Assembly (NCBI GenBank): GCA_003132905.1
Contig: PKZC01000051.1
Coordinates: forward strand, 971-23,437
Reading direction: 5' to 3'
Length of the DNA stretch: 22,467 bases
DNA from: Bryobacterales bacterium
GTDB taxonomy: Bacteria; Acidobacteriota; Terriglobia; Bryobacterales; Bryobacteraceae
This document shows, piece by piece, positions 4,091 through 22,138 of the stretch. A program made the translations under genes and the position numbers. How positions within the stretch are numbered: position 1 is the first letter of the stretch; each line of letters begins with the position of its first letter. Below the pieces are notes generated by a model. It was not told where the DNA came from and ran no database searches. It worked only from the letters and a program-made list of their open reading frames with translations.

Positions 4091-4276
4091 CGCAAGGGTG
4101 GCCGCTGATGACAAACTCAATGAGACAATGGCATGACACGCTATAGAACGATGATCATTGCGACGCCGCTGCCGGCGACCGCATTGAGCGGTGCCGATGC
4201 CGATCGGAATTTTCCTCGGCAGAATAATTCGGCCTACGATTGACCAGCCAATTCAGCTCGTGAAGTAAATTGCAAC

Positions 4277-5041: not shown

Positions 5042-5155
5042 GGTCACGATGAAGCATAACCAACTCGCGAATGAGGACGCAGGCGTGGAGCGATCACCGC
5101 TCTTATTATCCTGGCCTTTCTATCTGGTTACCCGACACAAACATGGAACCGCAAC

Positions 5156-6292: not shown

Positions 6293-6322
6293 ACGATGCA
6301 ATGCGCTGGATAATTCTGCCGC

Positions 6323-6413
6323 CATGTTGCTTTGGTCGCGATCTGCGCTTGAGGCAGAGATTTGGACGTTGCGGCAGCAACTCCGTTCGAGATTCCGCCA
6401 AAGGCGTAGCTGA
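6323..6413 (+). pseudogene. Fragment of an integrase-type transposase N-terminus
   Basis: The plus strand reads MLLWSRSALEAEIWTLRQQL followed by a basic run and a stop at 6411-6413. The segment resembles the coiled start of integrase-core transposases in Bradyrhizobium-like genomes, where a sentence such as SRA.LEAEILVLRQQL is common. Only about 30 codons remain and no catalytic domain follows. The match is from memory and short, so it could be chance. Confidence 0.4.
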
Positions 6414-6477
6414 CTCAAACCTTTGACAAAGGTCACCCGGATTTGGACATCGATGGCAGGCGCCGCTCGCTAAAAAC

Positions 6478-6497
6478 ATATTGTATTTTTGCAATAT
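6478..6497. promoter_or_regulatory. AT-rich palindrome upstream of sqr, operator candidate
   Basis: ATATTG (6478-6483) and CAATAT (6492-6497) are perfect inverted repeats around an eight-base AT-rich spacer, about 90 bases before the sqr start. Sulfide oxidation genes of Alphaproteobacteria are often controlled by ArsR-type persulfide sensors (SqrR/BigR) binding AT-rich dyads. This site would suit such a repressor, but no regulator gene of that type is in the window. Confidence 0.4.
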
Positions 6498-6587
6498 CTA
6501 GTAAGCTCTCGACGGATCGGAACGATACGCGGCCCAATAAGAGCCGCTCTCTCACGCGCTCAACAATAAGTCAGGGAGGAATAACCA

Positions 6588-8204: not shown

Positions 8205-9197
8205 CTATTTTCTCGCGATGCCTGCGCGCTCGACGATCTCCTTCCACATTGGCAATTCGCGGACCATGAGCGCATGCAGCTCATCGGGCCCTTCATATTT
8301 CACTTTGAAGCCAGCCTTGAGCATTTTGGCCTGTAGGTCGGGTTTCTGCAGGATGGCGACCGTCGCCTCATTAAGGCGGTTGATGATCGGCGCCGGTGCA
8401 CCGGTCGGCGCAAGAAACATTTGCGTGGTTTCGACAACCGCATTGGGAATGCCGGCTTCCGCCATCGTCGGAACGTCAGGCATGTCCGGCCAATGCTCGC
8501 TGCCGGTCTGGACCAAAGCCTTCAGCGTGCCGGCCCGGATGAAGCCGATCAAATTGGCAATCGGGATCGAGGCGATGTCGGTCGTACCTGCGAGGGCAGC
8601 CTCGAGTGCCGGCACTGCACCCGAATACGGAACATTCGTCATTTCGATATTGGTGCGCAGCTTCAACAGCTCGACCGCAAGATCCGAGAAGCTGCCGATG
8701 CCGGCCGTGGCATAGGTGAGTTTGCCCGGGTTCGCTTTAGCCTTTGCTATCAGATCCGCAATGCTGGTAATGCCTGAGGCCGGCCGCGTGATAATGGCAT
8801 TGGGCGAAGCCCCGAGATAAGCAATCGGCGCGAAATCCTTGAGCGGGTCGTAAGCGACTTTGCCGACGTTCGGATTGGTCAGAATCACGCCAGTGACGAC
8901 CAGCAGGGTGTAACCGTCGGGCTCGGCACGCGCGGCGCTTGCGATCCCAATATTGCCGATTGCACCGGGGCGGTTCTGGATAATAACATTCTGCCCAAGT
9001 TTCGGCGCCAGCTCGGCCGCCAACAGCCGGCCGAGCAGATCGGTGGGGCCGCCGGCCGGAAATGGGACGATGATGGTGACTGTGCGCTCGGGCCAGGCGG
9101 CGCGCGCTTCACCGACCGCCAGTACCGCAAGCATAAACACAACCAACCGAATTGCGTGAAAAGCGAAGCGAGTGATTTTTTGATATTTTCTATTCAT
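8205..9197 (-). CDS. Bug-type solute receptor (tripartite tricarboxylate transporter family)
   Basis: The 330-residue protein has a signal peptide of about 33 residues: basic start, hydrophobic RLVVFMLAVLAVGEARA, cleavage before AWPE. The mature protein shows the Bug/TctC hallmarks: VTIIVPFPAGGPTDLLGRLL, the ligand-loop VIIQNRPGAIGNIG, EPDGYTLL, and LTYATAGIGSFSDLAVELLK. It would bind a small organic anion in the periplasm. No TctA/TctB membrane genes are adjacent, which is usual for orphan Bug receptors; it may work with remote permeases or as a sensor. GGAG eight bases ahead of the ATG supports the start. It is the last gene of the minus-strand cassette. A decayed copy of its C-terminus occurs at 16198-16372. 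Confidence 0.9.
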   Translation of the reverse strand: MNRKYQKITRFAFHAIRLVVFMLAVLAVGEARAAWPERTVTIIVPFPAGGPTDLLGRLLAAELAPKLGQNVIIQNRPGAIGNIGIASAARAEPDGYTLLVVTGVILTNPNVGKVAYDPLKDFAPIAYLGASPNAIITRPASGITSIADLIAKAKANPGKLTYATAGIGSFSDLAVELLKLRTNIEMTNVPYSGAVPALEAALAGTTDIASIPIANLIGFIRAGTLKALVQTGSEHWPDMPDVPTMAEAGIPNAVVETTQMFLAPTGAPAPIINRLNEATVAILQKPDLQAKMLKAGFKVKYEGPDELHALMVRELPMWKEIVERAGIARK

Positions 9198-9371: not shown

Positions 9372-10544
9372 CTACAAAACGAACTCCGGTATGAGACCTT
9401 GCGGAGCCTTCCCGTGGAAGACCCGTGAAATATTGGCCAGCACCGCCTCAGCTTCGTCGATCATGAAATTTGGGTCACCCCCGCTGATATGCGGGGTCCA
9501 CAGAACGTTATCGAGTTCAAGCAGAGGCGTATCCGAAGGGACCGGCTCGTACCGATAGACGTCCAATGCGGCGCCGCCCAAATGCCCGGCCTTGAGGCTT
9601 TCGTACAGAGCCACTTCGTCGAGAATACCGCCGCGCGCGGTATTGATCAGATAGGCACCGCGTTTCATCTTGGCAAAGAAATCGCGCCCCGCCAATTTCT
9701 CCGTCTCTTTGCCGTATGGCACATGCAGCGACACAAAATCGGATTGCGCCAGCAATTCATCAAACGGCGCATAGGAAACGTCGCCAAAATTTCTTTCTTC
9801 TTCCGGGCTAAGTCGCGTTCGTTTGAAATAGAGAACTCGCATCCCCATGCTGCACATCCGCCGAGCGACAAAACCGGAATTCTCGCCGAGCCCGATGAAC
9901 CCGATGGTGCTGCGCGAAAGAATTTTGAAATTGCGGATCCCCGCCCAGTTAAACTTGTTCCGGGAAGGATCCTTGGCGAACACGGGAGGCGCCGCCGGAT
10001 CCCGGCGGCCGACAACCGAGCGATGGGCCTGAAGCAGATTGCGGGCAAGTGCGAGTATAAGCGCCGTAATATGGTCGGCGCTCGATTGACTGCTCAAGCG
10101 AGCCAAGTTGGCAACGGGAATGTTCAGCTTGCGCGCTGTTGCAACATCGATATTGCCGTAGGAACGGCCGAATTGCTGAATGAGCCGTGTTTTGGTCCCG
10201 CAGGCCTCGACCTGTTTTTTGCCGAGGGTTGAGGCTTCCACAACGACAAAATCGGAAGACGGCAATGTCCGATCGAGTATCTCCTCGCTCTGACAGACGG
10301 TCGTCTCGATTTCCGGCGGCAATTCGAGCCGGTCGGCCATCGTGGTCAGCTCTTTGAGTGGCGCAGGGAACTCGTCGCCAAAGAAGTAACGTAATGTCTT
10401 TTCGCCTTCGGGCGTCAATTTGCGCCGCAAACCCATTTCCATCAGGCGAAACAGGGCGTCTTCTTCGGCGAAAACCACGTGGATTTGTTTCTGGCTCACA
10501 GCGTCATCCCGTGTTTTGCGATTTCTTACCGATGTCAATCTCAC
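9372..10544 (-). CDS. D-isomer-specific 2-hydroxyacid dehydrogenase-like protein
   Basis: The 390-residue protein has the NAD fold IGFIGLGENSGFVARRM (about 214-230). The third glycine of the usual GxGxxG is Ser, with Gly next to it. Catalytic-type residues of the family are in place: Arg304 (NTARGGILDE), Glu333 (YRYEPVP) and His352 (TPHISGG). It would reduce a 2-oxoacid or oxidise a D-2-hydroxyacid with NAD(P)H. Its N-terminal domain is about 50 residues longer than in typical members. The GTG at 10544 lacks a clear ribosome site; a GTG at 10499 (VSQKQIHVVF) with GGGA seven bases upstream is a good alternative and would give 375 residues. It starts four bases after the flavoprotein stop, so the two are surely co-transcribed. 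Confidence 0.85.
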   Translation of the reverse strand: MRLTSVRNRKTRDDAVSQKQIHVVFAEEDALFRLMEMGLRRKLTPEGEKTLRYFFGDEFPAPLKELTTMADRLELPPEIETTVCQSEEILDRTLPSSDFVVVEASTLGKKQVEACGTKTRLIQQFGRSYGNIDVATARKLNIPVANLARLSSQSSADHITALILALARNLLQAHRSVVGRRDPAAPPVFAKDPSRNKFNWAGIRNFKILSRSTIGFIGLGENSGFVARRMCSMGMRVLYFKRTRLSPEEERNFGDVSYAPFDELLAQSDFVSLHVPYGKETEKLAGRDFFAKMKRGAYLINTARGGILDEVALYESLKAGHLGGAALDVYRYEPVPSDTPLLELDNVLWTPHISGGDPNFMIDEAEAVLANISRVFHGKAPQGLIPEFVL

Positions 10545-10548
10545 TCTA

Positions 10549-12093
10549 TCATTTCATCCGGCCGGCGCGCCGCGCGGCGAGCGCAGCCTCAGTCCATTCC
10601 GCGCTGCCTAGCGCCGCGCTGCGGCCCGCCAAGCGGCCCGATACGAAAGCCCAGCCGAGATGATGCCCGTGGCCTTCGAGCAATACCCCACCCTGCCCGG
10701 CAGAGCCTGCCGCAAAAAGCCCGTGGATCGGCTGGCCACCTCGGTCGACGACCTGAAATTTTCTGTTGATGCGGGCGCCGCCGTCGGTAAAGACGATCCA
10801 ACTTTTGGCCGGACCAAGCGCGCAATAAGGCACGCGGTCAATCGGCGCCAATCCTGCCGGAAGATTGCTGTTGTACTCGTCGACCGTCTTTTCCAGCGCA
10901 CCGGCCGGCATCGCAAGCTTCTTTGCGAGTTCCGCGAGCGTCTCAGCTTCGAAGAAGACGTCCTTGCGATTGCGCCGATAATCCGCGAGGTAGGCATAGG
11001 CCACCCCAGGCGCTGTGGAGATGAAATTCGGCCACGCGCTGAACTCGGCCGCGATCTTTTGATCCATCAGGACGTAGGCGATGCGTTCGGGCTGGCGCGG
11101 AATTGCGAGTTCGGGGCAATTACGTTCGTCGACGAACCGCTTTCCTTCCTTGTTGACCAGAATCGCGCCCTTTTTAAAAAGATTGAGCGACGGCGCCAGA
11201 TTGGTCGTAATGAACATCATCAGAAACGGCCGTAACAGCCAGGACGGCAGATAATTCATCGCCCAGCGCATAGCGAGCGCAATCGGTTTGATCGGCGGAA
11301 TGAGGTCGATAAATTTCTTGCTGGGCGGCGCGACGAAGCGAATCTCCGGTCCCAGCATGATCTCGCCGTTCACAATGTCGCCGCCCGCCTCCTGCGCCAT
11401 GCGCTGGCCGTCGCCGGTGCTGGTCGGATTTATGCCTTCGACGTCGGCAAGATCAGCAGACATGAACTCAGCCTTGATCTCCTTGGCCGAACTGTAGTCG
11501 CCGGTGGCGAGGATGACGCCGAACTTCGCGCCGATGCGATGGGCGGTGTTACCGTCGGAGGCAACCTCGACGCCAGTGATCGTCGCATCGTCGCGCGTCA
11601 GCTTCACCACTCGCACGCCAACGCGTATGTCGACGCCGAACCGCCGTGCACGCTTCTCCAGGTGATAAAGATACGAGCGCGCGTGCGGCAGGACATTATG
11701 CATGCGCGGCAGGCGGTGCGGTGGTTCGGGCATGGCGCCGAAGAACACGACCCCCATATCCATCAGCCACTGCACCATGTCCGGTGAATGCTCGACCAGC
11801 AACCGCCGCAACTCGAGATTATCCTTTTCGGCAAAGCCGCGATTGTCGGCAAACAACGCCATGTCCTCGAAGTGAGCCTGCGGAAAATCGTGAATCCCCT
11901 TGTCCCACTGCAGAGGCGTACAAGTCGAGGTCACCGAGCCGACCGAACGAATGGTGGTGCCACCAAGCGCGGGATTCTTTTCAAGCAACACCACTTTTCG
12001 TCCAAAGCGCGCCGCTTCAACCGCCGCGGCAAGGCCGCTCCCGCCGCCGCCGACAACAACGACATCAAAAGTTTCGTCGCTCTGACTGCTCAT
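10549..12093 (-). CDS. FAD-dependent oxidoreductase, fumarate reductase flavoprotein-like
   Basis: The 514-residue protein belongs to the FAD_binding_2 family (fumarate reductase, 3-ketosteroid dehydrogenase, urocanate reductase). The FAD fold is VVVVGGGGSGLAAAVEAA (11-28) ending in acidic Glu38. GFAEKDNLELRRLLVEHSPD, GVILATGDYS and GAILVNKEGKRFVDE follow. The last is the usual place of the catalytic Arg. The C-terminal half of the FAD site is VFTDGGARIN and GLFAAGSAGQGGVLLEGHGH. No signal peptide or cytochrome domain is present, so it is a soluble cytoplasmic enzyme. A hydrophobic insert at about 288-315 could contact the membrane. It probably reduces or oxidises an activated C=C bond in a ring-derived product. 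Next to UbiD and the Mo enzyme it is a candidate ring-reduction step, by inference only. Confidence 0.87.
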   Translation of the reverse strand: MSSQSDETFDVVVVGGGGSGLAAAVEAARFGRKVVLLEKNPALGGTTIRSVGSVTSTCTPLQWDKGIHDFPQAHFEDMALFADNRGFAEKDNLELRRLLVEHSPDMVQWLMDMGVVFFGAMPEPPHRLPRMHNVLPHARSYLYHLEKRARRFGVDIRVGVRVVKLTRDDATITGVEVASDGNTAHRIGAKFGVILATGDYSSAKEIKAEFMSADLADVEGINPTSTGDGQRMAQEAGGDIVNGEIMLGPEIRFVAPPSKKFIDLIPPIKPIALAMRWAMNYLPSWLLRPFLMMFITTNLAPSLNLFKKGAILVNKEGKRFVDERNCPELAIPRQPERIAYVLMDQKIAAEFSAWPNFISTAPGVAYAYLADYRRNRKDVFFEAETLAELAKKLAMPAGALEKTVDEYNSNLPAGLAPIDRVPYCALGPAKSWIVFTDGGARINRKFQVVDRGGQPIHGLFAAGSAGQGGVLLEGHGHHLGWAFVSGRLAGRSAALGSAEWTEAALAARRAGRMK

Positions 12094-12446
12094 TAGCGCC
12101 GTCCCCGGTTTATTCTTACGGCGCCGTCATTCCGCTGTCGACGGCCAACATAACTGGGCAATACGAAGGCTCGTCCCATGCGAGGAACAAGAAGGCGTTG
12201 GTGAAGTCCTAGGCTGCTCCATCTGGTTCATCACACGAAGCACATCCAGCTCGCGCCTTAGTTCGGACAGCCGGTCGCCCTTGCGAAAGATTTTCTTGAA
12301 ATACGGCGCCTTTCGCCCAATGCGGTCAACATTTGTCCTGTTGCCGATATGGGCTTGACTGCGAGCCAGATTCCGAGGGCCTTAGCATCTCCCCATAAGC
12401 GGCCATTACCCGCTCTGGCCCCTAAATCTGAGTTGATCAAGGCAAG
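12094..12446. other. Degenerate stretch with gene debris
   Basis: These 353 bases separate the flavoprotein gene from the small cysteine ORF. The left part is the short-chain dehydrogenase tail (12116-12208). On the minus strand about 12380-12206 also holds an open frame of coding-like composition (KAPYFKKIFRKGDRLSELRR and LDVLRVMNQMEQP) without a start codon. Its family is not recognised. It appears to be the residue of one or two deleted genes. Confidence 0.5.
12116..12208 (-). pseudogene. C-terminal remnant of a short-chain dehydrogenase/reductase
   Basis: Minus-strand translation of 12208-12116 gives DFTNAFLFLAWDEPSYCPVM followed by LAVDSGMTAP and a TAA stop. This is the standard SDR ending, normally of the form (A)xaxLFLASDEASYVTGQ.LxVDGGMTAP. 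The VTG motif has become CPV and the NAD-binding and Tyr-xxx-Lys parts are missing, so it cannot be active. An intact SDR here would have been a plausible ring reductase for the neighbouring pathway, for example a phloroglucinol-reductase-like step. Confidence 0.7.
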
Positions 12447-12662
12447 TTAGAAAACGGCTGGATAAATGTTCGGAGGCCTTCGCCAGTGTTCATCATCGCG
12501 ATCGATCTGCATTTCCTTCGCAATACACTCGTTGCCCGTGGAGAGAATGCATCGTTCATTCCGGCCGCAATCGCCGCCAATAAAGTGAGACAACCGTAGC
12601 GACATCGCGATTCTGTCCGCCAACTTGAAGAATACCTTCCAGATTTTGTCGAATGCGCGCAT
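12447..12662 (-). CDS. Small cysteine-containing hypothetical protein (71 aa)
   Basis: The 71-residue product starts MRAFDKIWKVFFKLADRIAM and carries Cys32, Cys38 and Cys46 in a block reading GGDCGRNERC and GNECIAKE, then an acidic-basic stretch (QIDRDDEHWRRPPNIYPAVF). No family is recognised. Evidence that it is real: a long Shine-Dalgarno (AGGAAAGGA, complement of 12671-12679) eight bases ahead of the ATG, a natural amino-acid mix, and its place 74 bases after the Mo-enzyme small subunit on the same strand. The cysteines could bind a metal or Fe-S cluster, and it may be an accessory or electron-transfer partner. It might instead be the tail of a larger gene trimmed by rearrangement. There is no signal peptide. 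Confidence 0.55.
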   Translation of the reverse strand: MRAFDKIWKVFFKLADRIAMSLRLSHFIGGDCGRNERCILSTGNECIAKEMQIDRDDEHWRRPPNIYPAVF

Positions 12663-12736
12663 CCGTTTGATCCTTTCCTCAGCGTCGAATTGCCCCGCGC
12701 CTGTAACGCAAGCATTTTCTCGCTTGAATGCGGAGC

Positions 12737-13570
12737 CTATCCCGTCTTTTTCAGACTGACCTCGCCCAGATCCTGGTCACCGTCCGTCGTCACAACGACA
12801 CGGAAGCCTTCGTAGCCTTCCTTCTTGATCTCGACGCTGTACTTTCGGTCCTTGTCCAGCTCCCTAATCCAGAAGTCGCCAAACTCATCCGACTGCACCA
12901 TGACGGCGCGATCGTCAAAAAGATCGATCGATGTGATTGCGGCACCTGAAATCACCTCGTCGGTGCCGGCGTCGATGACAATGCCGGCGATCCACGGCTT
13001 GGGCAAACCCCTCCAGTAAACCCGCGGCTCGGCCTGATATTCCGGGTGATAGGTTTCGAGCCGCTTTGCCTGTCCTTCTTGGCTGAAGACGCTATCTGTC
13101 TCGTCGGCGAAGACGATGGCATCATGGGGACACACTTCGGCGCAGCGGGGCAGCAATCCTTCGTCGACGCGGTGCGCGCAGCCCGTGCATTTCTGCGCAA
13201 TGCCGAGGTCGTCGTTCAGATAGATGACGTCATAGGGACAGGCCTTCTGACAGAGCCCGCAACCGTTACAGGTTTCCGGATCAATCCAGACCAGACCATC
13301 GTCGCGCCGCTTGATGGCGCCCTCGGGACACACCTTGATGCAAGGAGCGTTCTCGCAATGCTGACAGAGCAGCGGCAGGTACGACATCTTGACCCTGGGC
13401 GTCTTGCCCCGCTCGACCGGGATCACGTCGATCCAGAAATGGCCGGTGTCGGGCTGCGTTGCCGTCCACGGCGCATAGCTGTTGCCGACATGCTCGTCCT
13501 TGCAGGCGATGATGCACAGGCTGCAACCGCTGCACTTGTCGACATCAATGAGAAATGACTTCTTACCCAT
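12737..13570 (-). CDS. Fe-S small subunit of transhydroxylase/resorcinol hydroxylase-type Mo enzyme
   Basis: The 277-residue electron-transfer subunit has sixteen cysteines in four groups: Cys13/16/19/23, Cys69/72/77/81, Cys101/104/107/111 and Cys128/131/143/147. This is the pattern for four [4Fe-4S] clusters of DMSO-reductase-family beta subunits. From about residue 193 a separate beta-rich domain begins (WIAGIVIDAGTDEVISGAAI ... GDFWIRELDKDRKYSVEI), a carboxypeptidase-regulatory/transthyretin-like barrel. The pyrogallol transhydroxylase beta subunit, known from memory to be 274 residues, also has such a barrel, which identifies this subtype. The ATG at 13570 is preferred; a TTG at 13582 would add four residues but sits directly on the AAAGG ribosome site. 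It is 22 bases downstream of the large subunit. Confidence 0.88.
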   Translation of the reverse strand: MGKKSFLIDVDKCSGCSLCIIACKDEHVGNSYAPWTATQPDTGHFWIDVIPVERGKTPRVKMSYLPLLCQHCENAPCIKVCPEGAIKRRDDGLVWIDPETCNGCGLCQKACPYDVIYLNDDLGIAQKCTGCAHRVDEGLLPRCAEVCPHDAIVFADETDSVFSQEGQAKRLETYHPEYQAEPRVYWRGLPKPWIAGIVIDAGTDEVISGAAITSIDLFDDRAVMVQSDEFGDFWIRELDKDRKYSVEIKKEGYEGFRVVVTTDGDQDLGEVSLKKTG

Positions 13571-13592
13571 TTGTGCAATCAACCTTTGCCGA

Positions 13593-16172
13593 TCAACCCT
13601 GCAGCGCCGATCCGCGGTCGATACCTACGCCGGCCACGATGTCTGCGGTGTCGATTTTCTCCACTTGCGCTAAGAATCCGCTGATGTTCATTTCCGGGAT
13701 ACTGATCTCCTTCCCGGCGCCATATTTTTCCGTCGGCGACGGGGAGATTAGGTTTATGCACCCGCCTCTATCGACCAGCTTGTTCCGCAGCTTCGCCGTG
13801 TCGATGTTGGCGCCATGTTCGATGGACAAGGCGCCCGGAATAATCCGTTCCGTCAGCACGGCGCCGCACAGCACGCTGCCGCGGTCGTTGTGGACCATGA
13901 TGATGTCGCCGGCGGCAATGCCCCTCGGCGCAGCGTCGCTCGGATGAATCCAACATGGCTCGTACATGTAACCGTCCGGCCCGCGGACCTTGGAAAGCTC
14001 GCGGATCCAGTCGATATCGTCGCCCTGAACATGGAACCTAAATCGCGGATGGTTCGACATCACCGCCAGGGGATACTCCTGCGACCTGGCGGAGCCGTGC
14101 TGCTCGGAATGCGAAACCCACCTCGCCAGCGGCGGCCGTTCCTTATTGTCAGGATCTAGCGCCGCGATGCGCCCCGATACGAATTCGATCTTGCCCGACG
14201 GCGTCTCCAGCCCTTTCGCTGCGGCCCAGTACCAATGAAGACCGCCCTCATTCGGGCCGTAGCCGTGCTCCTTCTTGATGTCCACCCATTCGTCCCAGGT
14301 CGGGCAGTCATAGACGACGTATTGCTTTTTCTTGAACTCGTCCCAGCTCAGCCCGAGCTTGGTCTTGGCCAGCGTGCGCTCATAGGTCTTCTTGAGCCAT
14401 TCGCCGGCGGCCGGGAATGCATCGTCCAAACCCAGCCGCTGTCCGATCATGCGGTGAATCTCGTAGTCGCTCTTGGAATCGCCTACCGGCTCGATCGCCT
14501 GCGCCTGATAAAACAGGGCGAGGATATCGCTCCGCTGCACCGCGAGCAGATCCTCATGCTCATAGTTCGTTTGCGCCGGCAGGATCAGGTCGGAGAACGG
14601 GATGTCGTTCTCAAACCACGGATGCACGCCAACGACGAAATCGATGCGCGGCGCGCGGAGCGCCTCCAGCCATTGGTAGCCGTTGCCCCAACTGCCCGGC
14701 TGACTGCCGTTCTCGTTCCACACCATCCGGATGCCGGGGTGGTCCTTGTTGGGAGGAAAGTGATAACGCTTGAACTGGTCCTCGGTCTTCGCCAAAGCGG
14801 CGGACGTGCTTCGCCACTCGATCGAAGGACACAGAATCGCTTCCGTCGCAAGCGTGCGCGGGATGAACACTGGCGACTTCGGCCCGTGCCCGATCGCATA
14901 CTCGATCATGGGATTGAAAGGTATGCCGAGCCGGTCGACCTCAGGATAGCGCGGAACTTGCGCCAGCGATTTCTTATAAAAGGACGGCGCTCCCGTCCGT
15001 AGAAACTGCCGTCCCGGGCGGCCGATGCCTTGCATCGCCAGCACATAGGCTTCGAGGCGTCCGACCAGATGCGACAACGTGCCTCTGATCTTGGCGCCGC
15101 CGAAATAGACCGACAGCGTGGTCTTCTTGCTGGCCCACTCTCTGGCCAACGCGCGAATAGTGTGCGCCGGCACGCCGGTCATCTTCTCCGCCCAGACCGG
15201 CGTCTTCGCGATGCCGTCGTCTTCTCCCATCACGTGCTTCTTGAACTCGTCGAAGCCGATAGTGTGCGTCTCGACGTATTCCTTGTCGTAATTGCCCTCA
15301 ATGATCCAGGTATGCGCCAACGCAAAATAGAGCGCCGCATCCGAATTTGGCTTCACCGGAATCCATTTGTCGGCGTGAATGGCGGCCGCATAATTGAGGT
15401 CGGGAGAGATGGCTACGATCTTGATACCGGCGCGCTTCAGCCATTTGGGCATTTCCAGCGCAATCGATCCCGACATGCCTAACCCGGTCACCTCCGGATC
15501 GTTGCCGGAGAAGATTACCATCTCGGCATGCTCGAGAACATCGTCCCAGACCGCGTCCTGATATGGCTCGCCCAAGGTATTGTCGAAACCCCAAACGTGC
15601 TTGGCGCCCCAGTAGTAGCCTTCCCAGCTATCGGGGTTGCGCACCTGCTGGGTCCACCATCCCCAACCTAGGCGTTCGCGGATCATGTCGAAGAGATAAT
15701 GCCCCCAGAAGTGCAGCGACTGCAGATATCCGCTCTGGCCGTGACCATCCGCCTGCACCAGAACGGGCTCCATCGAGCCGTATTTCTCGCGGATGCGCTT
15801 GAGCTGATCGACAATGATGTCGAGCGCCTGATCCCAACTGATCCGCTTATAGCCACTCCTTCCGCGTTGTTCGGTGTTCGGATTGTCAGGGCTCCAGTCG
15901 GTCCTCAACAGCGGATATTTTACGCGCGCGGCGGAGTGCACGCGCCTTTTGGCGGCGAAGGCCAAAGGCATCTGCACTTCCTTCTTCGGACGCGAGAAGG
16001 TGCCGCGTGACGTCTTGATCTCGTAGAGTCGAACATCGTCGGGAATGTAGAATGGCAACGACCGGATGATCTTCGAGCCGGACACGTGAGAGACCAAAGG
16101 AAAATTCGATCTCGCCAAGCCGCTCGCAGGGTGAGAAACGTAAACGACTCTGGGCTCTTGATCATCAGACAT
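13593..16172 (-). CDS. Molybdopterin large subunit, pyrogallol transhydroxylase / resorcinol hydroxylase type
   Basis: The 859-residue protein is a DMSO-reductase-family catalytic subunit binding bis-MGD molybdenum. Unlike most members it has no N-terminal Cys cluster, as in pyrogallol:phloroglucinol transhydroxylase (about 875 residues) and resorcinol hydroxylase. RNPDSWEGYYWGAKH (178-192) contains Asp181-Ser182-Trp183, which I equate with the Asp174-Ser175-Trp176 of Pelobacter transhydroxylase, Ser being the Mo ligand. Family blocks include ISWDQALDIIVDQL (111-124), VIFSGNDPEVTG, RAGIKIVAISPDLN, SDLILPAQTNYEHEDLLAVQ and, near the end, the molybdopterin-binding domain (ALSIEHGANIDTAK). No Tat signal is present, so it is cytoplasmic. 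With the small subunit it should hydroxylate or transhydroxylate a phenolic ring. The upstream UbiD gene suggests the substrate arises by decarboxylation of a hydroxybenzoate. Confidence 0.88.
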   Translation of the reverse strand: MSDDQEPRVVYVSHPASGLARSNFPLVSHVSGSKIIRSLPFYIPDDVRLYEIKTSRGTFSRPKKEVQMPLAFAAKRRVHSAARVKYPLLRTDWSPDNPNTEQRGRSGYKRISWDQALDIIVDQLKRIREKYGSMEPVLVQADGHGQSGYLQSLHFWGHYLFDMIRERLGWGWWTQQVRNPDSWEGYYWGAKHVWGFDNTLGEPYQDAVWDDVLEHAEMVIFSGNDPEVTGLGMSGSIALEMPKWLKRAGIKIVAISPDLNYAAAIHADKWIPVKPNSDAALYFALAHTWIIEGNYDKEYVETHTIGFDEFKKHVMGEDDGIAKTPVWAEKMTGVPAHTIRALAREWASKKTTLSVYFGGAKIRGTLSHLVGRLEAYVLAMQGIGRPGRQFLRTGAPSFYKKSLAQVPRYPEVDRLGIPFNPMIEYAIGHGPKSPVFIPRTLATEAILCPSIEWRSTSAALAKTEDQFKRYHFPPNKDHPGIRMVWNENGSQPGSWGNGYQWLEALRAPRIDFVVGVHPWFENDIPFSDLILPAQTNYEHEDLLAVQRSDILALFYQAQAIEPVGDSKSDYEIHRMIGQRLGLDDAFPAAGEWLKKTYERTLAKTKLGLSWDEFKKKQYVVYDCPTWDEWVDIKKEHGYGPNEGGLHWYWAAAKGLETPSGKIEFVSGRIAALDPDNKERPPLARWVSHSEQHGSARSQEYPLAVMSNHPRFRFHVQGDDIDWIRELSKVRGPDGYMYEPCWIHPSDAAPRGIAAGDIIMVHNDRGSVLCGAVLTERIIPGALSIEHGANIDTAKLRNKLVDRGGCINLISPSPTEKYGAGKEISIPEMNISGFLAQVEKIDTADIVAGVGIDRGSALQG

Positions 16173-16197
16173 AGTGTCATTCCAACCTTGCGTATGC

Positions 16198-16372
16198 CTA
16201 TTTCTTGCCTATACCGGCGCGCTCGACGACCTCTTTCCACATGGGCATCTCGCGGGCACGCAAATCCTCCGGCGATTCGTATTTCACTAAGAACCCGGCG
16301 CTAAGCATTTTGGCTCTTACAGCGGGATTCTGCAGGATGGCTTTCGTCTCTTCGGCTCAATGGAGCAGATCA
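16198..16372 (-). pseudogene. C-terminal remnant of a second Bug receptor
   Basis: Minus-strand translation gives AILQNPAVRAKMLSAGFLVK, YESPEDLRAREMPMWKEVVE and RAGIGKK, then a TAG at 16198-16200. The intact Bug gene ends ILQKPDLQAKMLKAGFKVKY ... ELPMWKEIVERAGIARK. Upstream, an in-frame TAG and an indel (LLH*AEETKAIL for RLNEATVAIL) mark decay, and the rest is gone: the UbiD stop is only a few bases away. It is a truncated paralogue of the gene at 8205-9197. It lies between the UbiD and Mo-enzyme genes, and the deletion brought these two closer. Confidence 0.85.
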
Positions 16373-16380
16373 TTTGGTGC

Positions 16381-18036
16381 CTATTTTCCTTCCTGGACAT
16401 CCCGGACTTCAGTGTTCATTTTCACGTCTTTGCGCCGTCGTAGCATGGCGAGGCGTCCGGTTTCCCAATAGTCGCCCGCGACAGCGAGTTGAGCCTCACG
16501 CTCGAGGTCTTCGGTCCACGCCCCGAGCGAGTAGCCAAACCACGGGGCCTGTGGTTTCAGCTTCTGTTGATGGAGCGTGTTTTCCCAGATGTCGCGCGCA
16601 TGTTCCATGAATGGGCGGGTCGGCAAGGAAATCGGAGGATAGTCTTGATGCAGTGTTGCATTGATCAGAAGTGCCGAGTCTTCTGAGCCGCGCACTTTGT
16701 CGCGAGGTCCGTGCCCCTCATCCTTGTGTGGCAAGATATGCATGTCGAGATGGGGCTTTGACCGCAACGCGATCGCCCAGAGGATGGCATCAGCATTGTT
16801 GGGGTCGATGTCCTCGTTAGTGGCAATAATTATTTTGCCTGACGGCCGTTGAACCGTCGCGCAGCCGTAAAGGGCGCGCCAAACTTCTGTATTGGGGACG
16901 CCGCGCTCGAATTGGAGCACAAAAATGCGATAGCCGCCGGAGAGCGGCATATGCATGTAAACGCGTGTTAGGCCGTTAATTCCAAGATTATGCCGCAAGT
17001 GGCGGAAGAAGTTGTATTCTTGTCCGGGCTTGCGCATAACTGTCGCCTCGCTGGGCGCGAATTGTCCGACGAACGAAGTGAATATTGCATTACGGCGGTG
17101 GGTAATGCAGGTCACGTCGACGAAGGCGTTAAACTCCTGCAAATTGACGTGGCCGTGCGATTCTCCGAATGGAGCCTCCGGTTCTAAATATTCGGTACTT
17201 ACCATGCCTTCGATGACGATCTCGGCCTCAGCGGGGACCAAGAGGTCTACAGTGCGCGCGTGGACGACGTTGATCGGGCTACCGACCAAGCCGCCGGCGA
17301 GCGCCAATTCGTCAACTGTTTCCGGAGCTTTTTGAACGGCGGCATACGAAACTACTGGTGGACCGCCAACGACAATGGCGACCGGCATCGGTTTCCCCAG
17401 TGCTTTATACTTTTCCCAATGCAGGTAGCCGCCCGCTTTAAGCTCTACCGACGTGTTCATGCCGACACGGCGGGGTGCTTTGATCTGGCCCCGGTAATTT
17501 CCGAGATTTTGAATACCGGTTTCTGGGTCTTTGGTGATGTAGCCAGATGTCGTGAGATATGGACCATTGTCCCAGCCGGGCGTCGATATCGGTACTGGCA
17601 ATGCGTCGAGCGCGCGGCCAGGCGTGTTCAAATCATCGCCTTCAATGATGACTTCCTGGCACGGGCCGTTTTCAACGAGCCGCGGCGGCGTAAGGTTATC
17701 CATTGCTTCCGCCCAGGCACTGACGATCTTATCGAGCGGCCTTCCAACTCCGATTTCGAAAATCTTTGGGCTTGCTGCCATGGCGCCGATTAGAACGGGC
17801 ATGTCATATTTCTTGCCCTTGCTATCCACCACGTTTGTGAACAGCATGGCCTTGCGATCGTTCTCCTCCATACCGCCGCAGAACTGCCAACGCATCAGAG
17901 GATGCATTTCAGTATCTTTGTTGACCGGCACGTCTACTTTCAGCAGGAGCTGCGCCTCCTCGAGCGCGCGGACATGATCATGGAGATCATGATAGGCCCG
18001 CTCCGGCGACGACGAATTAGCCTTGTTGCTGTTCAA
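16381..18036 (-). CDS. UbiD-family prenyl-FMN-dependent decarboxylase
   Basis: The product is about 551 residues. UbiD enzymes use prenylated FMN and Mn/K to (de)carboxylate aromatic or alpha,beta-unsaturated acids. Motifs (numbered from the TTG) include NLGNYRGQI (177-185) with the Arg that binds prFMN, VVGGPP (223-228), and EPEAPFGESHGH (285-296). Glu287 and Glu292 there have the five-residue spacing of the catalytic glutamates of Fdc1. The start is a TTG at 18034-18036: AGGAG (complement of 18043-18047) lies six bases before it. An in-frame ATG at 18102 would add 22 residues but lacks a ribosome site and has no family-like sequence. Relatives include gallate, protocatechuate, vanillate and phenylphosphate (de)carboxylases. 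Its pairing with a phenol-hydroxylating Mo enzyme favours a polyhydroxybenzoate. No UbiX prenyltransferase gene is in the window. Confidence 0.9.
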   Translation of the reverse strand: MNSNKANSSSPERAYHDLHDHVRALEEAQLLLKVDVPVNKDTEMHPLMRWQFCGGMEENDRKAMLFTNVVDSKGKKYDMPVLIGAMAASPKIFEIGVGRPLDKIVSAWAEAMDNLTPPRLVENGPCQEVIIEGDDLNTPGRALDALPVPISTPGWDNGPYLTTSGYITKDPETGIQNLGNYRGQIKAPRRVGMNTSVELKAGGYLHWEKYKALGKPMPVAIVVGGPPVVSYAAVQKAPETVDELALAGGLVGSPINVVHARTVDLLVPAEAEIVIEGMVSTEYLEPEAPFGESHGHVNLQEFNAFVDVTCITHRRNAIFTSFVGQFAPSEATVMRKPGQEYNFFRHLRHNLGINGLTRVYMHMPLSGGYRIFVLQFERGVPNTEVWRALYGCATVQRPSGKIIIATNEDIDPNNADAILWAIALRSKPHLDMHILPHKDEGHGPRDKVRGSEDSALLINATLHQDYPPISLPTRPFMEHARDIWENTLHQQKLKPQAPWFGYSLGAWTEDLEREAQLAVAGDYWETGRLAMLRRRKDVKMNTEVRDVQEGK

Positions 18037-18042
18037 CTTTGT

Positions 18043-18047
18043 CTCCT
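18043..18047 (-). promoter_or_regulatory. Shine-Dalgarno that decides the UbiD start
   Basis: AGGAG on the minus strand lies six bases before the TTG at 18036. The rival ATG at 18102 has no comparable site. This favours the TTG start for the decarboxylase. Confidence 0.6.
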
Positions 18048-18121
18048 TTTCCCATTCAATGCCGACTTTTGGCGAAGTTGTTAGCTGGTCGGTCCTACTC
18101 ATGCCAATGGAAAGCCATCAG

Positions 18122-19198
18122 TTAGCGGCTATATTCCTTCCAGATCGAAGATAGCGACGTTTCTACTATATCGTTGTAGGCTGGCGGTGTCCCTTTGATC
18201 TGTCCGGTAGTCTGGAGCAACTTTACGTTCTTGGTGATCATGCTAGACAACACGGCAGGCTTCCAAGCCGGTGCTGCATTTTTGATGACGCGACGCAACA
18301 CTGCAGGATCGTTCTTCGGAAACTCTTTGAGAGCGATCTTTAGCAAATTATCAAGGTGCGTAGGATCAGCAATGTAGTTTTGCGCGCGAACGATCGCGTG
18401 CATCATTTTTTCGACTGTCTGGCGGTTGGAAGCGAGGTAGGACTTTGACGTTTCCACCATGCTGAAGCCGAAATCATCAAAAACTTCGGGTCCTTCGCCG
18501 GCAGTGAAGTTGATGATATAGCTCCAGGTGCCGAGTTTTTCGACTGCAAGCACGGAAAACGGGTCCGAGAGCATATTGGCGTCAACGGCCTTAGCCTCGC
18601 CGGCGGCAATTTGCCGATCGCCGCCTTGAATAGGGATCAAAGTCGCGTCCTTGTCAGGATTGATTCCTGCAGAGATGAGCGTGTAGCGAGTCGCCAGATC
18701 GGTGAAGCCACCGCGGCCAAGCGTTCCGATGCGAAGGCCCTTAAGGTCGGCGACAGTCGGTTTGTGGCCCAGCTTATCGGCGATGTCCTTGCGAATGACG
18801 AGCCCGCAGGTCAGCCGCGCCAGCCCCGTCATGGTAACGACAATCGGCAAGCCGCGTTTGACAGCTTTGAGGCCATCCTCGAGGGCACCGTAAAGGAATT
18901 GCGACGAGCCACCAACCAACGAGGCCATCGCCGCCGGTCCGGCTCCGAAATAGTCGAATTTGACGTCGAGGCCTTGGCCAGCGAAGTAGCCCCGATCCAG
19001 TGCCACGAACAACGGAAGCGCCGAGATCGCGCGCGCTGCCACGGCGACGTGGACTACTTGAGGCTCGGTTGCGGCCGCGTTCTCGCCGCCAGAGATAACG
19101 TGGACGCCAAGCAGCGCAGCCAGTGCCGTGAAGAAGAGCGGTAACCGCCGACCACGGCCGATTGGCGTTGTGTTTTGTAATGTCCTGTGTCCAACCAT
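18122..19198 (-). CDS. ABC transporter substrate-binding protein (NMT1/SsuA-like)
   Basis: The 358-residue precursor has a basic start with RR, a hydrophobic core (LPLFFTALAALLGVHVISGG) and probable cleavage around residues 42-45 (AAATEP). The mature part follows the NMT1/SsuA pattern: LPLFVALDRGYFAGQGLDVK, a GGSSQFLYGA loop, LKGLRIGTLGRGGFTDLATR, then YLASNRQTVEKMMHAIVRAQ. Such proteins bind sulfonates, nitrate, thiamine precursors or aromatic acids such as phthalate. GGGAG seven bases before the ATG supports the start. It belongs with the permease and ATPase genes upstream. Its position directly before the UbiD gene suggests that the ligand is the aromatic acid to be decarboxylated; this is inference. 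Confidence 0.88.
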   Translation of the reverse strand: MVGHRTLQNTTPIGRGRRLPLFFTALAALLGVHVISGGENAAATEPQVVHVAVAARAISALPLFVALDRGYFAGQGLDVKFDYFGAGPAAMASLVGGSSQFLYGALEDGLKAVKRGLPIVVTMTGLARLTCGLVIRKDIADKLGHKPTVADLKGLRIGTLGRGGFTDLATRYTLISAGINPDKDATLIPIQGGDRQIAAGEAKAVDANMLSDPFSVLAVEKLGTWSYIINFTAGEGPEVFDDFGFSMVETSKSYLASNRQTVEKMMHAIVRAQNYIADPTHLDNLLKIALKEFPKNDPAVLRRVIKNAAPAWKPAVLSSMITKNVKLLQTTGQIKGTPPAYNDIVETSLSSIWKEYSR

Positions 19199-19279
19199 AT
19201 TTTTCTCCCTTGGGCATTTCCGCGATGCCAGTATCGCAAGAGACGGTGAGGCAGTCCGTATACATTGATCAGGTGGTCG

Positions 19280-20056
19280 TTATCGGGTGTCGGCTCTCCG
19301 CCAACGCAGCAGGATTGCGGACACCTTTAGGAAGAGACGATCGAGCAAGAATGCCAGCATCATCAGTACGAAAAGAGGCATAAGCATGCCGGTTGTGTCG
19401 AATGCACCTGCCGCACTGCTGATCATGTAGCCGATACCAGCACGGGCGGAGATGAATTCGCCGACGATCGCCCCGATTATGGCGAATGAAATTGATACGC
19501 GGAGAGCCGAAAAGATCCACGGCACGCAATTCGGCAGTAGCAGTTTCAGGAATGTCTGCCCCCGCGTGGCACCCATAACGCGCATGAAGCTGACAAGCAC
19601 GGGGTCAACCGAGCTGATTCCTTCTTGTGTGTTGATCATCACCGGCACCACCACTAGTGAAAATGCGAGCAGGAACTTGGAGGCGAAGCCGATGCCGACG
19701 TACATCACGATCAGCGGCGCAAGCGCCACACGAGGAAGGCTGTTGAGCGCCACGATGAACGGCTCTAAAATGGCTCCGACAGAGCGAGTGACACCGAGTA
19801 GTAGACCGAGCGCAATGCCCGCGGCTGTACCGACAGACAGGCCGCAGAGCGCTTCCCAGATTGTCACGCGCGTGTGGAAAGCTAATTCGCCGGTGGTCAG
19901 GGACTGCCAGAATGCCTTGGCAATAAGGCTTGGACTGCTGGTCCAGACCGTGTCAATAATCCCGAGACCGGCACTCGCCTGCCACAGCACCAGCGCCGCG
20001 CAAAGAAGCAACAGTTGAACTAGGACGATCCGCACTTTAGATTTTGTAGCAATCAC
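19280..20056 (-). CDS. ABC transporter permease (SsuC/TauC-like)
   Basis: The 258-residue inner-membrane protein has about six hydrophobic segments, beginning VLVQLLLLCAALVLWQASAG. The cytoplasmic EAA-type loop MRVMGATRGQTFLKLLLPNC (about residues 158-177) contacts the ATPase. ISFAIIGAIVGEFISARAGI and the final LMPLFVLMMLAFLLDRLFLK are typical of this family. The GTG start overlaps the stop of the ATPase gene (GTGA), implying translational coupling and a stoichiometric importer. The 81-base gap to the substrate-binding protein gene is still compatible with one transcript. Confidence 0.9.
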   Translation of the reverse strand: MIATKSKVRIVLVQLLLLCAALVLWQASAGLGIIDTVWTSSPSLIAKAFWQSLTTGELAFHTRVTIWEALCGLSVGTAAGIALGLLLGVTRSVGAILEPFIVALNSLPRVALAPLIVMYVGIGFASKFLLAFSLVVVPVMINTQEGISSVDPVLVSFMRVMGATRGQTFLKLLLPNCVPWIFSALRVSISFAIIGAIVGEFISARAGIGYMISSAAGAFDTTGMLMPLFVLMMLAFLLDRLFLKVSAILLRWRRADTR

Positions 20057-20883
20057 GAGCGTCCAGCCATGGCTTTGATGGCCTCGTCACGAAGCTGTTC
20101 CCAGAGCGTGTCGTAGTACTCGGCGAATCGGGGATCGGTGTGCAGGTGGCTCAAGTTTCGGGGCCGCGGGATATGGACTCGATGATCGGCTAAGAGGACG
20201 CCAGGCCGCGCTGACATGACGACAATGCGATCCGCTAGCGCAATAGCCTCGGCAAGATCATGGGTGACGAACACGACCGTCCGCCGGTTCGCCTCCCAAG
20301 ATGCGAGAAACATCTCATGGATGAGCACTTTAGTTTGGGCGTCGAGTGCGCCGAATGGCTCGTCCATGAGAAGGATCTGCGGGTCGGTGGCCAGGGTGCG
20401 GGCAAGCGAAACACGCTGGCGCATGCCGCCTGAAATTTCGTTCGGATAGTGATTTTCAAAACCGGCGAGGCCGAGGTCGCTCAGAATTTGACGAACCTTT
20501 TCTCGTCGCACATCTTTAGTCACGCCGCGCAGTTCAAGCCCGATCTCGGCATTCTTCAGCACCGTACGCCATGGCATGAGGGCGTGATGTTGGAACATAT
20601 AACCGACACTCGGATTGCTATCGTGGACGCGCTTACCCAGAACCTGTACTTGGCCACGCTGGATTGGCAGTAAGCCAGCTATAAAGTTCAGCAGCGTACT
20701 CTTGCCGCATCCGCTTGGGCCGACAATGGCAACAAATTCGCCGTCGGCGATTTGCAAGTTGATGGTCTTGAGGATTTCCAGTGGTCGACTGTCGCGTCCC
20801 GTTACCGAGTAGCCAAGTTCACTGACGTGAATGGTAGGTGGACTGCCAGTTGCGGTGCGAGTCTCATTTTGAGCAGGTAGCAT
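20053..20883 (-). CDS. ABC transporter ATP-binding protein (SsuB/TauB-like)
   Basis: About 276 residues from the ATG at 20881-20883 (MLPAQNETRTATGSPPTIHV). All nucleotide-binding motifs are present: Walker A GPSGCGKST, Q-loop MFQHHALMPW, signature SGGMRQRVSLARTLATDP, Walker B ILLMDEPFGALD and switch His in VFVTHDLAEA. It powers uptake by the adjacent permease and binding protein. The frame stays open upstream to 21018, but that stretch is low in family likeness and would make the protein unusually long, so the shorter start is preferred. It is probably the first gene of the minus-strand operon, divergent from LysR. Confidence 0.9.
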   Translation of the reverse strand: MLPAQNETRTATGSPPTIHVSELGYSVTGRDSRPLEILKTINLQIADGEFVAIVGPSGCGKSTLLNFIAGLLPIQRGQVQVLGKRVHDSNPSVGYMFQHHALMPWRTVLKNAEIGLELRGVTKDVRREKVRQILSDLGLAGFENHYPNEISGGMRQRVSLARTLATDPQILLMDEPFGALDAQTKVLIHEMFLASWEANRRTVVFVTHDLAEAIALADRIVVMSARPGVLLADHRVHIPRPRNLSHLHTDPRFAEYYDTLWEQLRDEAIKAMAGRS

Positions 20884-21229
20884 TGCGACATTAAGCCTTA
20901 GCTGAAGCTGCCAAAAGCATATTGGTCGTAGCCCCGCTGCCGGCGCTTCAAATATGGCTCCGTTCAACGTCAGCGCGTTAACGGCGAACTTCATTAGGCT
21001 GCATTTCGGGCTCCCCAACTGCGCTCAGGAACCAGCCATGCTAACTGATATACTGTCGTAATCCGGAATCTCGAGTACGTATATGGGAATAAAAACTAGG
21101 AGGGAGATGGCAAAAAAGCAATACACTTCCGAGCTTTAAGAGGTATAGACTATCCACTATGCCTTCGGCTTAAAGAAAGGCTTGTAAAAAGCCGACAATG
21201 CTGAATGCGGTCAGCGGGAGGTTACGCAT
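20884..21229. other. Divergent control region between ABC operon and LysR gene
   Basis: These 346 bases separate the two divergent start codons. The half next to LysR is AT-rich and holds an inverted repeat (21134-21175). The half next to the ABC gene is an open frame without protein-like character. Clear -35/-10 pairs could not be assigned on either strand. This is where a LysR regulator would be expected to bind. Confidence 0.55.
21134..21175. promoter_or_regulatory. Inverted repeat, candidate LysR binding site
   Basis: CTTTAAG (21134-21140) and CTTAAAG (21169-21175) are perfect 7-base inverted repeats enclosing a smaller dyad, GGTATAGACTATCC (21142-21155, with a central ATAG-A-CTAT). The site lies 55-95 bases upstream of the LysR start, in the divergent region, as is usual for LysR autoregulation. 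No classical T-N11-A half-site was chosen with confidence. Confidence 0.4.
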
Positions 21230-22138
21230 ATGATCTCGACTTCGATGCGACGCCTTGAAGTTTTTCTCGCAGTTGTCGAATCGGGCCGTTTCAGTGTGGC
21301 GGCTGAACGTCTTGGAATTACACAGCCTTCGGTCAGCGCCCACATTGCCGGCCTCGAGAGGCAGATTCGACAGCCGCTGTTTCTGCGCAATCCTGGCCGC
21401 ACTCCCTCGCTCAGCCACGCCGGTAGGTCACTGTTAGTCTATGCGACCGAGGCTGTGCGCAAATCGCGTGAGGCGGCTAGCGAAATTAGGAATCTTTGCC
21501 CCAGCGGAGCTGAGGAGTTGACGATTGCAGCCCAACGCTGCATTGCCAATCATTTGCTGCCGCCAATGCTGACGGATTTCATGTCCGAGCATCCGCAAGT
21601 GAAGATGACAGTGAACAGCGAAATCCAGGAAAACGTGATCGGATTGGTCAATGCCGGCAATGTCGATATGGCTTTGTTCTTGGGCGTGCAACGTGTGAGC
21701 GGGTTACCATCGGAGGTCGTCGGGCATCAGCGGCTCGCGCTCGTCGTGTCGCCGACGCATGAGCTTGCATCGCGTCAACGGGTGACACCGGAAGAATTAG
21801 CCAAATATCCGTTTGTCGGCGGGCTAGAAAATTCTAACTTCGCCAAGCTCATTGACACGGTATTGCGCAAGATTCACGTCAGCACTCCAAAATACTTGAT
21901 TCGCCTCCAAGATGCGACCGCACTAACGGCGATTGCTCGCCGCGGCGCCGGCGTTCATTGCACGCCGTTGTGCAATGTGCAGGCGGACATCGAAGCCCGC
22001 TTGCTGAAGCAGTTGCCTCTTACAGTTGAGCTCCCGCCGCTGCAAATTCGTTTGGCTTTTAATCCATCCAAACAGGTGTCGAATATTACCTATCGGTTTG
22101 CGCAAGTCTTGCGCAAAAAATCGATTTGGACGCATTGA
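21230..22138 (+). CDS. LysR-family transcriptional regulator
   Basis: The 302-residue protein has the LysR winged helix-turn-helix at about residues 8-65 (RLEVFLAVVESGRFSVAAER, LGITQPSVSAHI). A linker helix follows, then a two-lobed inducer-binding domain from about residue 95 (EELTIAAQRCIANHLLPPML). GGGAGG eight bases before the ATG supports the start. It is divergent from the ABC importer / UbiD / Mo-enzyme operon and is therefore its likely activator, responding to the imported aromatic acid or an intermediate. The inducer is unknown. The gene ends 23 bases before the right copy of the dispersed repeat. Confidence 0.92.
   Translation: MISTSMRRLEVFLAVVESGRFSVAAERLGITQPSVSAHIAGLERQIRQPLFLRNPGRTPSLSHAGRSLLVYATEAVRKSREAASEIRNLCPSGAEELTIAAQRCIANHLLPPMLTDFMSEHPQVKMTVNSEIQENVIGLVNAGNVDMALFLGVQRVSGLPSEVVGHQRLALVVSPTHELASRQRVTPEELAKYPFVGGLENSNFAKLIDTVLRKIHVSTPKYLIRLQDATALTAIARRGAGVHCTPLCNVQADIEARLLKQLPLTVELPPLQIRLAFNPSKQVSNITYRFAQVLRKKSIWTH

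Follow-up and report, generated by a model that had tools for sequence, protein, structure and literature searches.

A predicted aromatic-acid catabolic gene cluster around a little-known branch of the transhydroxylase-like molybdenum enzymes in a Bryobacterales genome

Introduction

Pyrogallol-phloroglucinol transhydroxylase (TH) of Pelobacter and the resorcinol hydroxylases of the RhLS type are the closest described relatives of the enzyme considered here, and both belong to a small family of molybdenum (Mo) enzymes with a bis-molybdopterin guanine dinucleotide (bisMGD) cofactor. The activities known in this subfamily, i.e., transhydroxylation and the hydroxylation of resorcinol and 3,5-dihydroxybenzoate, come, to our knowledge, from bacteria grown without oxygen. 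A second point of comparison is the phloroglucinol pathway of Clostridium scatologenes (PGR, DPGC, TfD, and TAL), in which, according to the available part of its description, the ring-opening DPGC belongs to the "cyclase" family and the last step is performed by a beta-keto acid cleavage enzyme acting on triacetate (PMC10470551). Here, we analyze a stretch of 22,467 nucleotides from a Bryobacterales bacterium (assembly GCA_003132905.1, contig PKZC01000051.1, positions 971 to 23,437 of the forward strand), referred to below as the window, which encodes on its minus strand a UbiD-family decarboxylase followed by both subunits of a Mo enzyme of the TH/RhL superfamily. We find that these genes are part of a real catabolic cluster, at the center of which is a little-known branch of the family, termed clade A below. 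A limited search of the open-access literature retrieved no description of this branch; a survey reporting 285 RhL/PgtL hits may include clade A-type sequences without setting them apart (PMC10100899).

The reading that we favor, at a probability of roughly 55%, is that the genes form a catabolic unit under LysR control whose substrate is an aromatic carboxylic acid, probably a hydroxylated one, with a route combining UbiD and the Mo enzyme. The original prediction for this DNA had allowed that the route need be neither of the textbook ones, and the comparisons below support this. The decarboxylase and the two Mo subunits that it recognized are all present as open frames, with the catalytic triad and the TH matches described below, as are the other genes that it named.

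The Mo enzyme belongs to a sister clade of the TH/RhL-like enzymes

The large subunit of the Mo enzyme is encoded at 13593..16172 (minus strand). Its best match among solved structures is TH (4v4c_A; E value of 2.6e-118, 400 bits), followed by a trimethylamine N-oxide (TMAO) reductase (234 bits), and acetylene hydratase is a weak match (73 bits). The Fe-S small subunit, encoded at 12737..13582 (minus strand), just beyond the interval 13593..18036 that the original prediction covered, matches the small subunit of TH (4v4c_B; 3.5e-46) over residues 10 to 276 of 281, the C-terminal barrel included. Like other members of the superfamily, it combines an Fe-S domain (PF13247) with this barrel, a carboxypeptidase-regulatory-like domain (PF13620). 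The matches of the Mo subunits to TH are far beyond chance. Naming the large subunit from the labels of its relatives was given up, the source names, where given, being general ones (e.g., TMAO reductase or molybdopterin oxidoreductase).

Relatives were drawn from a species-genome scan (20 loci), from 395 genomes of the family of G002, a metagenome-assembled genome (MAG) titled Sterolibacterium (17 matched), from 300 genomes of the order of G009 (3 matched), and from three plasmid loci. The closest large subunits are a database protein with 93% identity on a 4.4-kb contig (among the best 120 of 3002 relatives) and one with 82% identity in a Rhodospirillales MAG (L016). Clade A comprises the window protein and relatives at 70 to 82% identity; judged by MAG titles, its hosts are Alpha-, Beta-, and Gammaproteobacteria, Rokubacteria, and one archaeal bin, whose 5.5-kb contig may be misbinned. 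Clade B consists of proteins from two Myxococcota-labelled MAGs at about 41% identity, and a third clade unites TH with enzymes of about 850 or 1000 amino acids (aa). TH and the RhL-like enzymes of this third clade share about 45 to 55% identity, versus 33% between TH and the window protein.

Two quick tree searches, with support from the Shimodaira-Hasegawa-like approximate likelihood ratio test (SH-aLRT), give the same picture. The first tree has 64 rows, with sequences annotated as TorA, DmsA, and BisC and one further unnamed sequence as its root; in it, clades A and B group together (99 SH-aLRT) apart from TH plus the RhL-like enzymes (99 SH-aLRT). A 31-row tree recovers this split, and, in the same set, a constrained tree with seven clade A rows beside TH was rejected by the approximately unbiased (AU) test (p of 1.4e-7). 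The unrooted split of A plus B from TH plus RhL-like is independent of the root. In these trees the large subunit is placed as a deep sister clade of the TH/RhL-like clade and not inside it. A predicted model of the large subunit (predicted local distance difference test [pLDDT] score of 84) has TH as its best Foldseek match; the VIA-align Z scores of TH (35.8) and TorA (35.0) lie within 1 Z and are thus a tie, so that the fold alone does not place the Mo enzyme.

The RhLS type is represented in these comparisons by relatives linked to an E1-type dehydrogenase (G485, G418, and G621), their RhL label coming from gene context and not from a name. A fused gene for such a dehydrogenase lies about 1.1 kb from the RhL-like enzyme in these 3 of 21 genomes searched; from the work on Azoarcus and Thauera, we take it to be a sign of the resorcinol/hydroxyhydroquinone route. 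Named relatives of the three enzymes, among the matches listed, are from Georgfuchsia, Ferribacterium, and Thauera. The window enzyme shares with the RhLS type the superfamily and the metal-side residues but differs in sequence (34 to 35% identity), in cluster cysteines (9 of 16 in RhL-like rows), and in its neighbors. Furthermore, the RhL-like large subunits are near 1000 aa long and carry PF21423 (best 120 of 4829 relatives), whereas the relatives of the window protein are without it (best 120 of 3002). An assignment of the window enzyme as RhLS was rejected, the E1-dehydrogenase-linked enzymes falling in the other main clade. The tree placement proposed in the original prediction thus upholds a common superfamily with TH but yields a sister clade, with RhL-like rows standing in for the Azoarcus enzyme.

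Two RhL-like enzymes are encoded on plasmids, of Burkholderia stagnalis (L068) and Salipiger abyssi (L070), among genes of the aerobic aromatic-catabolism type: VOC proteins and fumarylacetoacetate hydrolases in both and, in L070, also a dienelactone hydrolase and a flavin reductase. Because of these aerobic-type neighbors, the TH/RhL family may extend beyond anaerobic life.

A conserved metal site, a different pocket, and a full set of cluster cysteines

Active-site residues were compared in a 65-row alignment of 60 family rows and 5 outside rows. Of the 60 family rows, all have the His and Ser of the TH columns His144 and Ser175 and 58 have the Asp of Asp174, and the window protein carries the hallmarks of the TH/RhL (PgtL/RhL) superfamily, a Ser Mo ligand in an NPDSW motif, an adjoining Asp, and a pocket His. 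Ser182 is the predicted Mo ligand, Asp181 is the Asp next to it, and His144 is probably the pocket His. This last assignment is probable and not certain because a second alignment puts His154, not His144, into the TH His144 column and because the loop 143-147 is poorly predicted (pLDDT under 50, as for the loops at the Mo site); in the model, His144 directly follows the strand 137-140, as the motif order suggests.

The columns on the substrate side are changed. Tyr152 and Tyr404, which we take to be substrate contacts (the roles of the other TH residues are presumed in the same way), are both kept in 38 of 38 TH/RhL-like rows versus none of the 22 rows of clades A and B. All 18 clade A rows have gaps at both Cys557 and Tyr560; in the 4 rows of clade B, another residue occupies the former column and the latter is a gap. 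To judge from these columns, clade A would keep the family chemistry at the metal but not the known substrate pocket of TH.

A transhydroxylase needs no electron outlet. The small subunits of the window and of 14 further clade A rows (loci with broken or cut small-subunit genes being omitted) have all 16 cluster cysteines, arranged as four sets of four, as do five rows from Myxococcota MAGs, one of which (L020, 2985-3794) pairs with a different large subunit. In the same columns, TH has 12 cysteines (three sites), five TH-like rows have 12 to 13, and 25 RhL-like rows have 8 to 9. The four-cluster subunit suggests that clade A possesses an electron outlet, and, because it keeps 16 cluster cysteines versus 12 in TH, a net redox enzyme, either hydroxylase or dehydroxylase, seems likelier than a transhydroxylase, with the caveat that the RhL-like rows are taken as hydroxylases and fewer cysteines need not mean the lack of redox activity.

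Compared with TH, then, the window enzyme has the same two-subunit architecture, NPDSW motif with its ligand Ser, His and Asp near the metal, and small-subunit barrel but differs in overall sequence, in main clade, in its missing Tyr152, Tyr404, and Cys557/Tyr560 stretch, and in its fourth set of cluster cysteines. On these differences, an identification as TH proper was discarded; the label "transhydroxylase/resorcinol hydroxylase-type" of the original prediction holds at the level of the superfamily but names neither of the two enzymes that it suggests. A practical consequence of the residue and cysteine contrasts is an annotation rule, namely, that homology should not be used to name such genes pyrogallol transhydroxylase or TMAO reductase. 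With its unchanged metal site, altered pocket, and complete wire of clusters, the sister clade also offers a way to test how net redox function could be lost from a transhydroxylase.

The closest partners of the Mo enzyme

The downstream part of the run encodes a flavoprotein (10549..12093, minus strand; FAD_binding_2, PF00890) and a D-2-hydroxyacid dehydrogenase-family protein (HADH; 9372..10544, minus strand), the latter with both domains of that family (PF02826 and PF00389). Whereas the original prediction had regarded the two as outsiders, comparative context makes them the closest partners of the Mo enzyme, HADH in particular. Neighbors were counted in 20 clade A loci (the window, L001 to L018, and L140), many with short flanks, and the gene maps of the relatives' loci come from a simple open reading frame (ORF) caller. 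In five loci (the window, L013, L015, L017, and L018), HADH and the flavoprotein are both found no farther than 3.1 kb from the Mo gene, in varying order and strand. Of the 21 clade A or B genomes, 6 have a homologue of HADH, which adjoins the Mo gene in 4; in the remaining two it is on another contig, in one case beside the flavoprotein. Within one family of 98 genomes, in which at most nine candidates were scored per genome, HADH is found in 2 of 5 clade A-bearing genomes versus 1 of 93 others (Fisher p of 0.006). In a further locus (L128), HADH comes 37 bp after a thiamine-diphosphate enzyme, an arrangement that fits a possible 2-oxo-acid role for HADH.

In its best alignment to flavocytochrome c3, the flavoprotein has Phe in place of the His before TMGG and Glu in place of the Arg of NRLGG, positions that we take to be those of the active-site His and the carboxylate-binding Arg. 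An identity as fumarate or urocanate reductase is unlikely, since these positions for fumarate binding are not kept. As a specific marker of clade A, the flavoprotein was ruled out by its wider spread (p of 0.13). Its homologues lie several times near TctC-type genes. In four loci (L123, L124, L125, and, as a 130-aa piece, L129), a flavoprotein homologue is accompanied by a cupin with about 51% identity to the cupin close to the Mo module of L013; L123, the locus that was scanned, also has TctA/TctB and an arylmalonate-decarboxylase-like gene.

Another five loci (L007, L010, L011, L012, and L140) have an FAD_binding_3 gene of the aromatic-hydroxylase type within 1 kb of the Mo gene, called by Pfam in L007 and L140 and by homology in the other three. 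Because of these neighbors, some hosts appear to pair the clade A enzyme with an enzyme of the O2-dependent type. In L016 (13448-16724), the clade A genes are immediately followed, on the opposite strand, by a URO-D-family gene and one for a RACo-type corrinoid activator; this pair resembles genes of corrinoid-dependent demethylation.

The UbiD-family decarboxylase

The ORF of the predicted prenylated flavin mononucleotide (prenyl-FMN) decarboxylase (16381..18102, minus strand; PF01977, 4.8e-55) is 573 aa long; an alternative start at 18036 agrees, by arithmetic, with the start of a 551-aa database entry (P0121). Along with the domain, it retains the R/E/E triad of the UbiD family (R204, E309, and E314), whose Arg and two Glu are presumably catalytic. 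It shares domains and triad with the hydroxyarylic acid decarboxylases of the VdcC, UbiD, HmfF, and AroY type but falls below the cut-offs of all seven curated families listed (e.g., TIGR00148, 207 versus 245; VdcC, 154 versus 650). A type with a known substrate (VdcC, UbiD, or phenylphosphate) was accordingly set aside, seven families matching and none over its cut-off.

In L009, a thiamine-diphosphate enzyme (5250-6971) lies near the Mo genes. Its relatives at 51 to 58% identity in three Alphaproteobacteria (L058 to L060) are found several kilobases from UbiD homologues of 57 to 58% identity.

A proposed route and its alternatives

In the route that we propose, an ATP-binding cassette (ABC) importer, perhaps with a TctC-type protein, would take up the aromatic acid, the candidate substrate. 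UbiD would remove the carboxylate nonoxidatively with prenyl-FMN, after which the Mo enzyme would add a ring hydroxyl from water at its Ser-ligated Mo-bisMGD centre or, run backwards, remove one. Two electrons would pass through four [4Fe-4S] clusters to a putative external carrier and not to a second phenol, and the flavoprotein and HADH would then reduce or oxidize the resulting cyclic ketone or 2-oxo product. If so, clade A would be a candidate entry point for aromatic carbon. The order of these steps and the joint expression of the genes are likewise predicted.

Several points weigh against this proposal. The direction of the reaction is not readable from the sequence, and the root of the trees rests on a long outgroup branch and is less sure than the split itself. 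One transcript for the whole run is not assured because a 644-bp gap (12093-12737) without a conserved gene splits the Fe-S and flavoprotein genes. Neither UbiX nor a ring-cleavage enzyme was recognized among the 16 ORFs of the window that were scanned. Among the clade A loci, 15 of 20 have no UbiD within 6 kb, many flanks being cut, and the HADH-flavoprotein pair is not in the available stretch of 15 of 20. The flavoprotein family, found in 13 of the 98 genomes, 2 of them clade A-bearing (p of 0.13), is not clade specific. In 13 clade A-bearing genomes (G001 to G013), finally, linkage of UbiD to the Mo gene is not significant, with 2 of 13 genomes versus 0.56 expected within 2 kb (P of 0.11) and 3 of 13 versus 0.94 expected within 5 kb (P of 0.07).

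This last result bears on the view that the neighborhood is fortuitous, with UbiD and the importer serving another route and only the Mo enzyme, HADH, and the flavoprotein belonging together. Each of the 13 genomes has 5 to 41 UbiD-family matches at an E value of 1e-30 or better, a point in favor of chance adjacency. However, the window UbiD lies 208 bp upstream of the large-subunit gene on the same strand, and UbiD is found on the same strand about 0.2 kb (L014) and 2.0 kb (L003) from the Mo gene in relatives; altogether, 4 of 20 loci (the window, L003, L014, and L015) have UbiD no more than about 2.1 kb from the Mo gene, and L017 has it at 5.8 kb. We hold chance adjacency to be unlikely, though a live concern. 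Independently of this question, the UbiD counts of some of these genomes amount to a large expansion of decarboxylases.

The gallate route named in the original prediction, in which UbiD would convert gallate to pyrogallol, the Mo enzyme would act as a functional TH, and phloroglucinol would be reduced and cleaved to triacetate, draws on TH being the best solved match of both subunits and on two leads toward the end of the pathway. In L013, which carries the same Mo-HADH-flavoprotein module as the window, a divergent gene about 160 bp from the Mo gene scores above the cut-off of NF053538 (542 versus 430 bits), the curated family of 3,5-dioxohexanoate:acetyl-CoA acetone transferase; 3,5-dioxohexanoate is triacetate. 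In L007, a gene for a PF04199 cyclase is found at a distance of 4.2 kb from the Mo gene; L010 and L011 have homologues of it and L008 a short match. PF04199, a broad family, is probably that of DPGC. These leads, both confined to a minority of loci (1 of 20 for the triacetate-type gene), hint at a meta-trihydroxybenzene product and do not yet agree on one substrate. Thus, L013 shares with the C. scatologenes pathway a gene of the triacetate-cleaving type, but no counterpart of PGR, DPGC, TfD, or TAL, i.e., no phloroglucinol reductase, cyclohydrolase, or triacetate lyase, was recognized among the 16 scanned ORFs of the window, and HADH and the flavoprotein are not named for that pathway in the available part of its description (PMC10470551). 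Together with the position of clade A outside the TH/RhL-like clade, the absent Tyr152/Tyr404 and Cys557/Tyr560 stretch, and the 16 cysteines versus 12, this makes the gallate route improbable.

The Mo enzyme might instead work reductively, stripping a hydroxyl from a polyphenol with electrons fed through the four clusters. A complete wire can run either way, and Mo catechol dehydroxylases show such chemistry within the bis-MGD family; according to the available part of the same source, however, they form a separate clade closest to acetylene hydratase (PMC7028382), a weak match here, and in some loci the neighbors of the flavin hydroxylase type point to oxidative catabolism. We consider this direction quite improbable. 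A resorcinol or 3,5-dihydroxybenzoate route, in which the ring would be converted to hydroxyhydroquinone, oxidized to a quinone, and hydrolyzed, would suit the shared superfamily and the need of a net hydroxylase for the electron exit that a 16-cysteine subunit offers but is very doubtful, given that the RhL-like enzymes belong to the other main clade, with Tyr404 retained and 9 of 16 cysteines present, and that no E1-type dehydrogenase was found on the clade A contigs of five clade A genomes searched (G002, G009, G010, G012, and G013) or among the 16 scanned ORFs of the window.

Returning to the UbiD-Mo enzyme unit that we favor, a wider and more tentative possibility is that clade A represents a further Mo-bisMGD lineage acting on aromatic compounds by water-based ring hydroxylation or dehydroxylation, with a rebuilt pocket and a four-cluster wire, in Proteobacteria that also use O2-dependent aromatic enzymes. 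The enzyme might work as a mobile core together with the flavoprotein and HADH, which would replace the known reductive or quinone steps, and the route might end in triacetate.

Gene layout and other features of the window

The run extends on the minus strand from 21018 to 8205 in the order ABC importer (three genes), UbiD, Mo large subunit, Fe-S subunit, flavoprotein, HADH, and binding protein. The importer genes (18122-21018) encode a TauB/SsuB-like ATPase (20053..21018; NF008421, 221.6 bits, below the cut-off of 357), whose true start is probably inside its ORF, an SsuC-like permease (19280..20056; NF008470, 110 bits, below the cut-off of 347), and a periplasmic binding protein of the NMT1/SsuA type (18122..19198; PF13379 and PF09084). 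None of the three parts reaches the cut-offs of the SsuA/TauA/NtrB-type models, which describe a broad family; the importer and the divergent LysR-type regulator (21230..22138, plus strand; 25 LysR models of NCBIfam shown, all below cut-off) of the original prediction are both present, but its qualification of the importer as of the aromatic-acid type does not follow. The last gene of the run (8205..9197) encodes a further periplasmic binding protein, which we take to be of the TctC/BUG type; it had no match in an NCBIfam scan, and homologues occur near the relatives' loci.

For the 644-bp gap, no six-frame piece matched any collected locus below an E value of 0.05, as a remnant gene might have. 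A terminator-like stem lies in it at 12191-12170, before the flavoprotein gene. Across the window, terminator-like sites number 21 versus 14.0 expected (standard deviation of 3.6), promoter-like sites are at chance level (6 versus 5.9 expected), and an Rfam scan gave no match.

Convergent with the run, a plus-strand group at 3287-7835 encodes an enoyl-CoA hydratase, an alpha/beta hydrolase-like ORF (labeled by eye, with no NCBIfam match), an acyl-CoA dehydrogenase, and a flavoprotein that resembles type III sulfide:quinone reductase but scores below the cut-off for that family. Farther out, at 1024-2481 (plus strand), a 485-aa ORF with no NCBIfam match has 41.6% G+C versus 56% for the window; it looks foreign and, by eye, ATPase-like.

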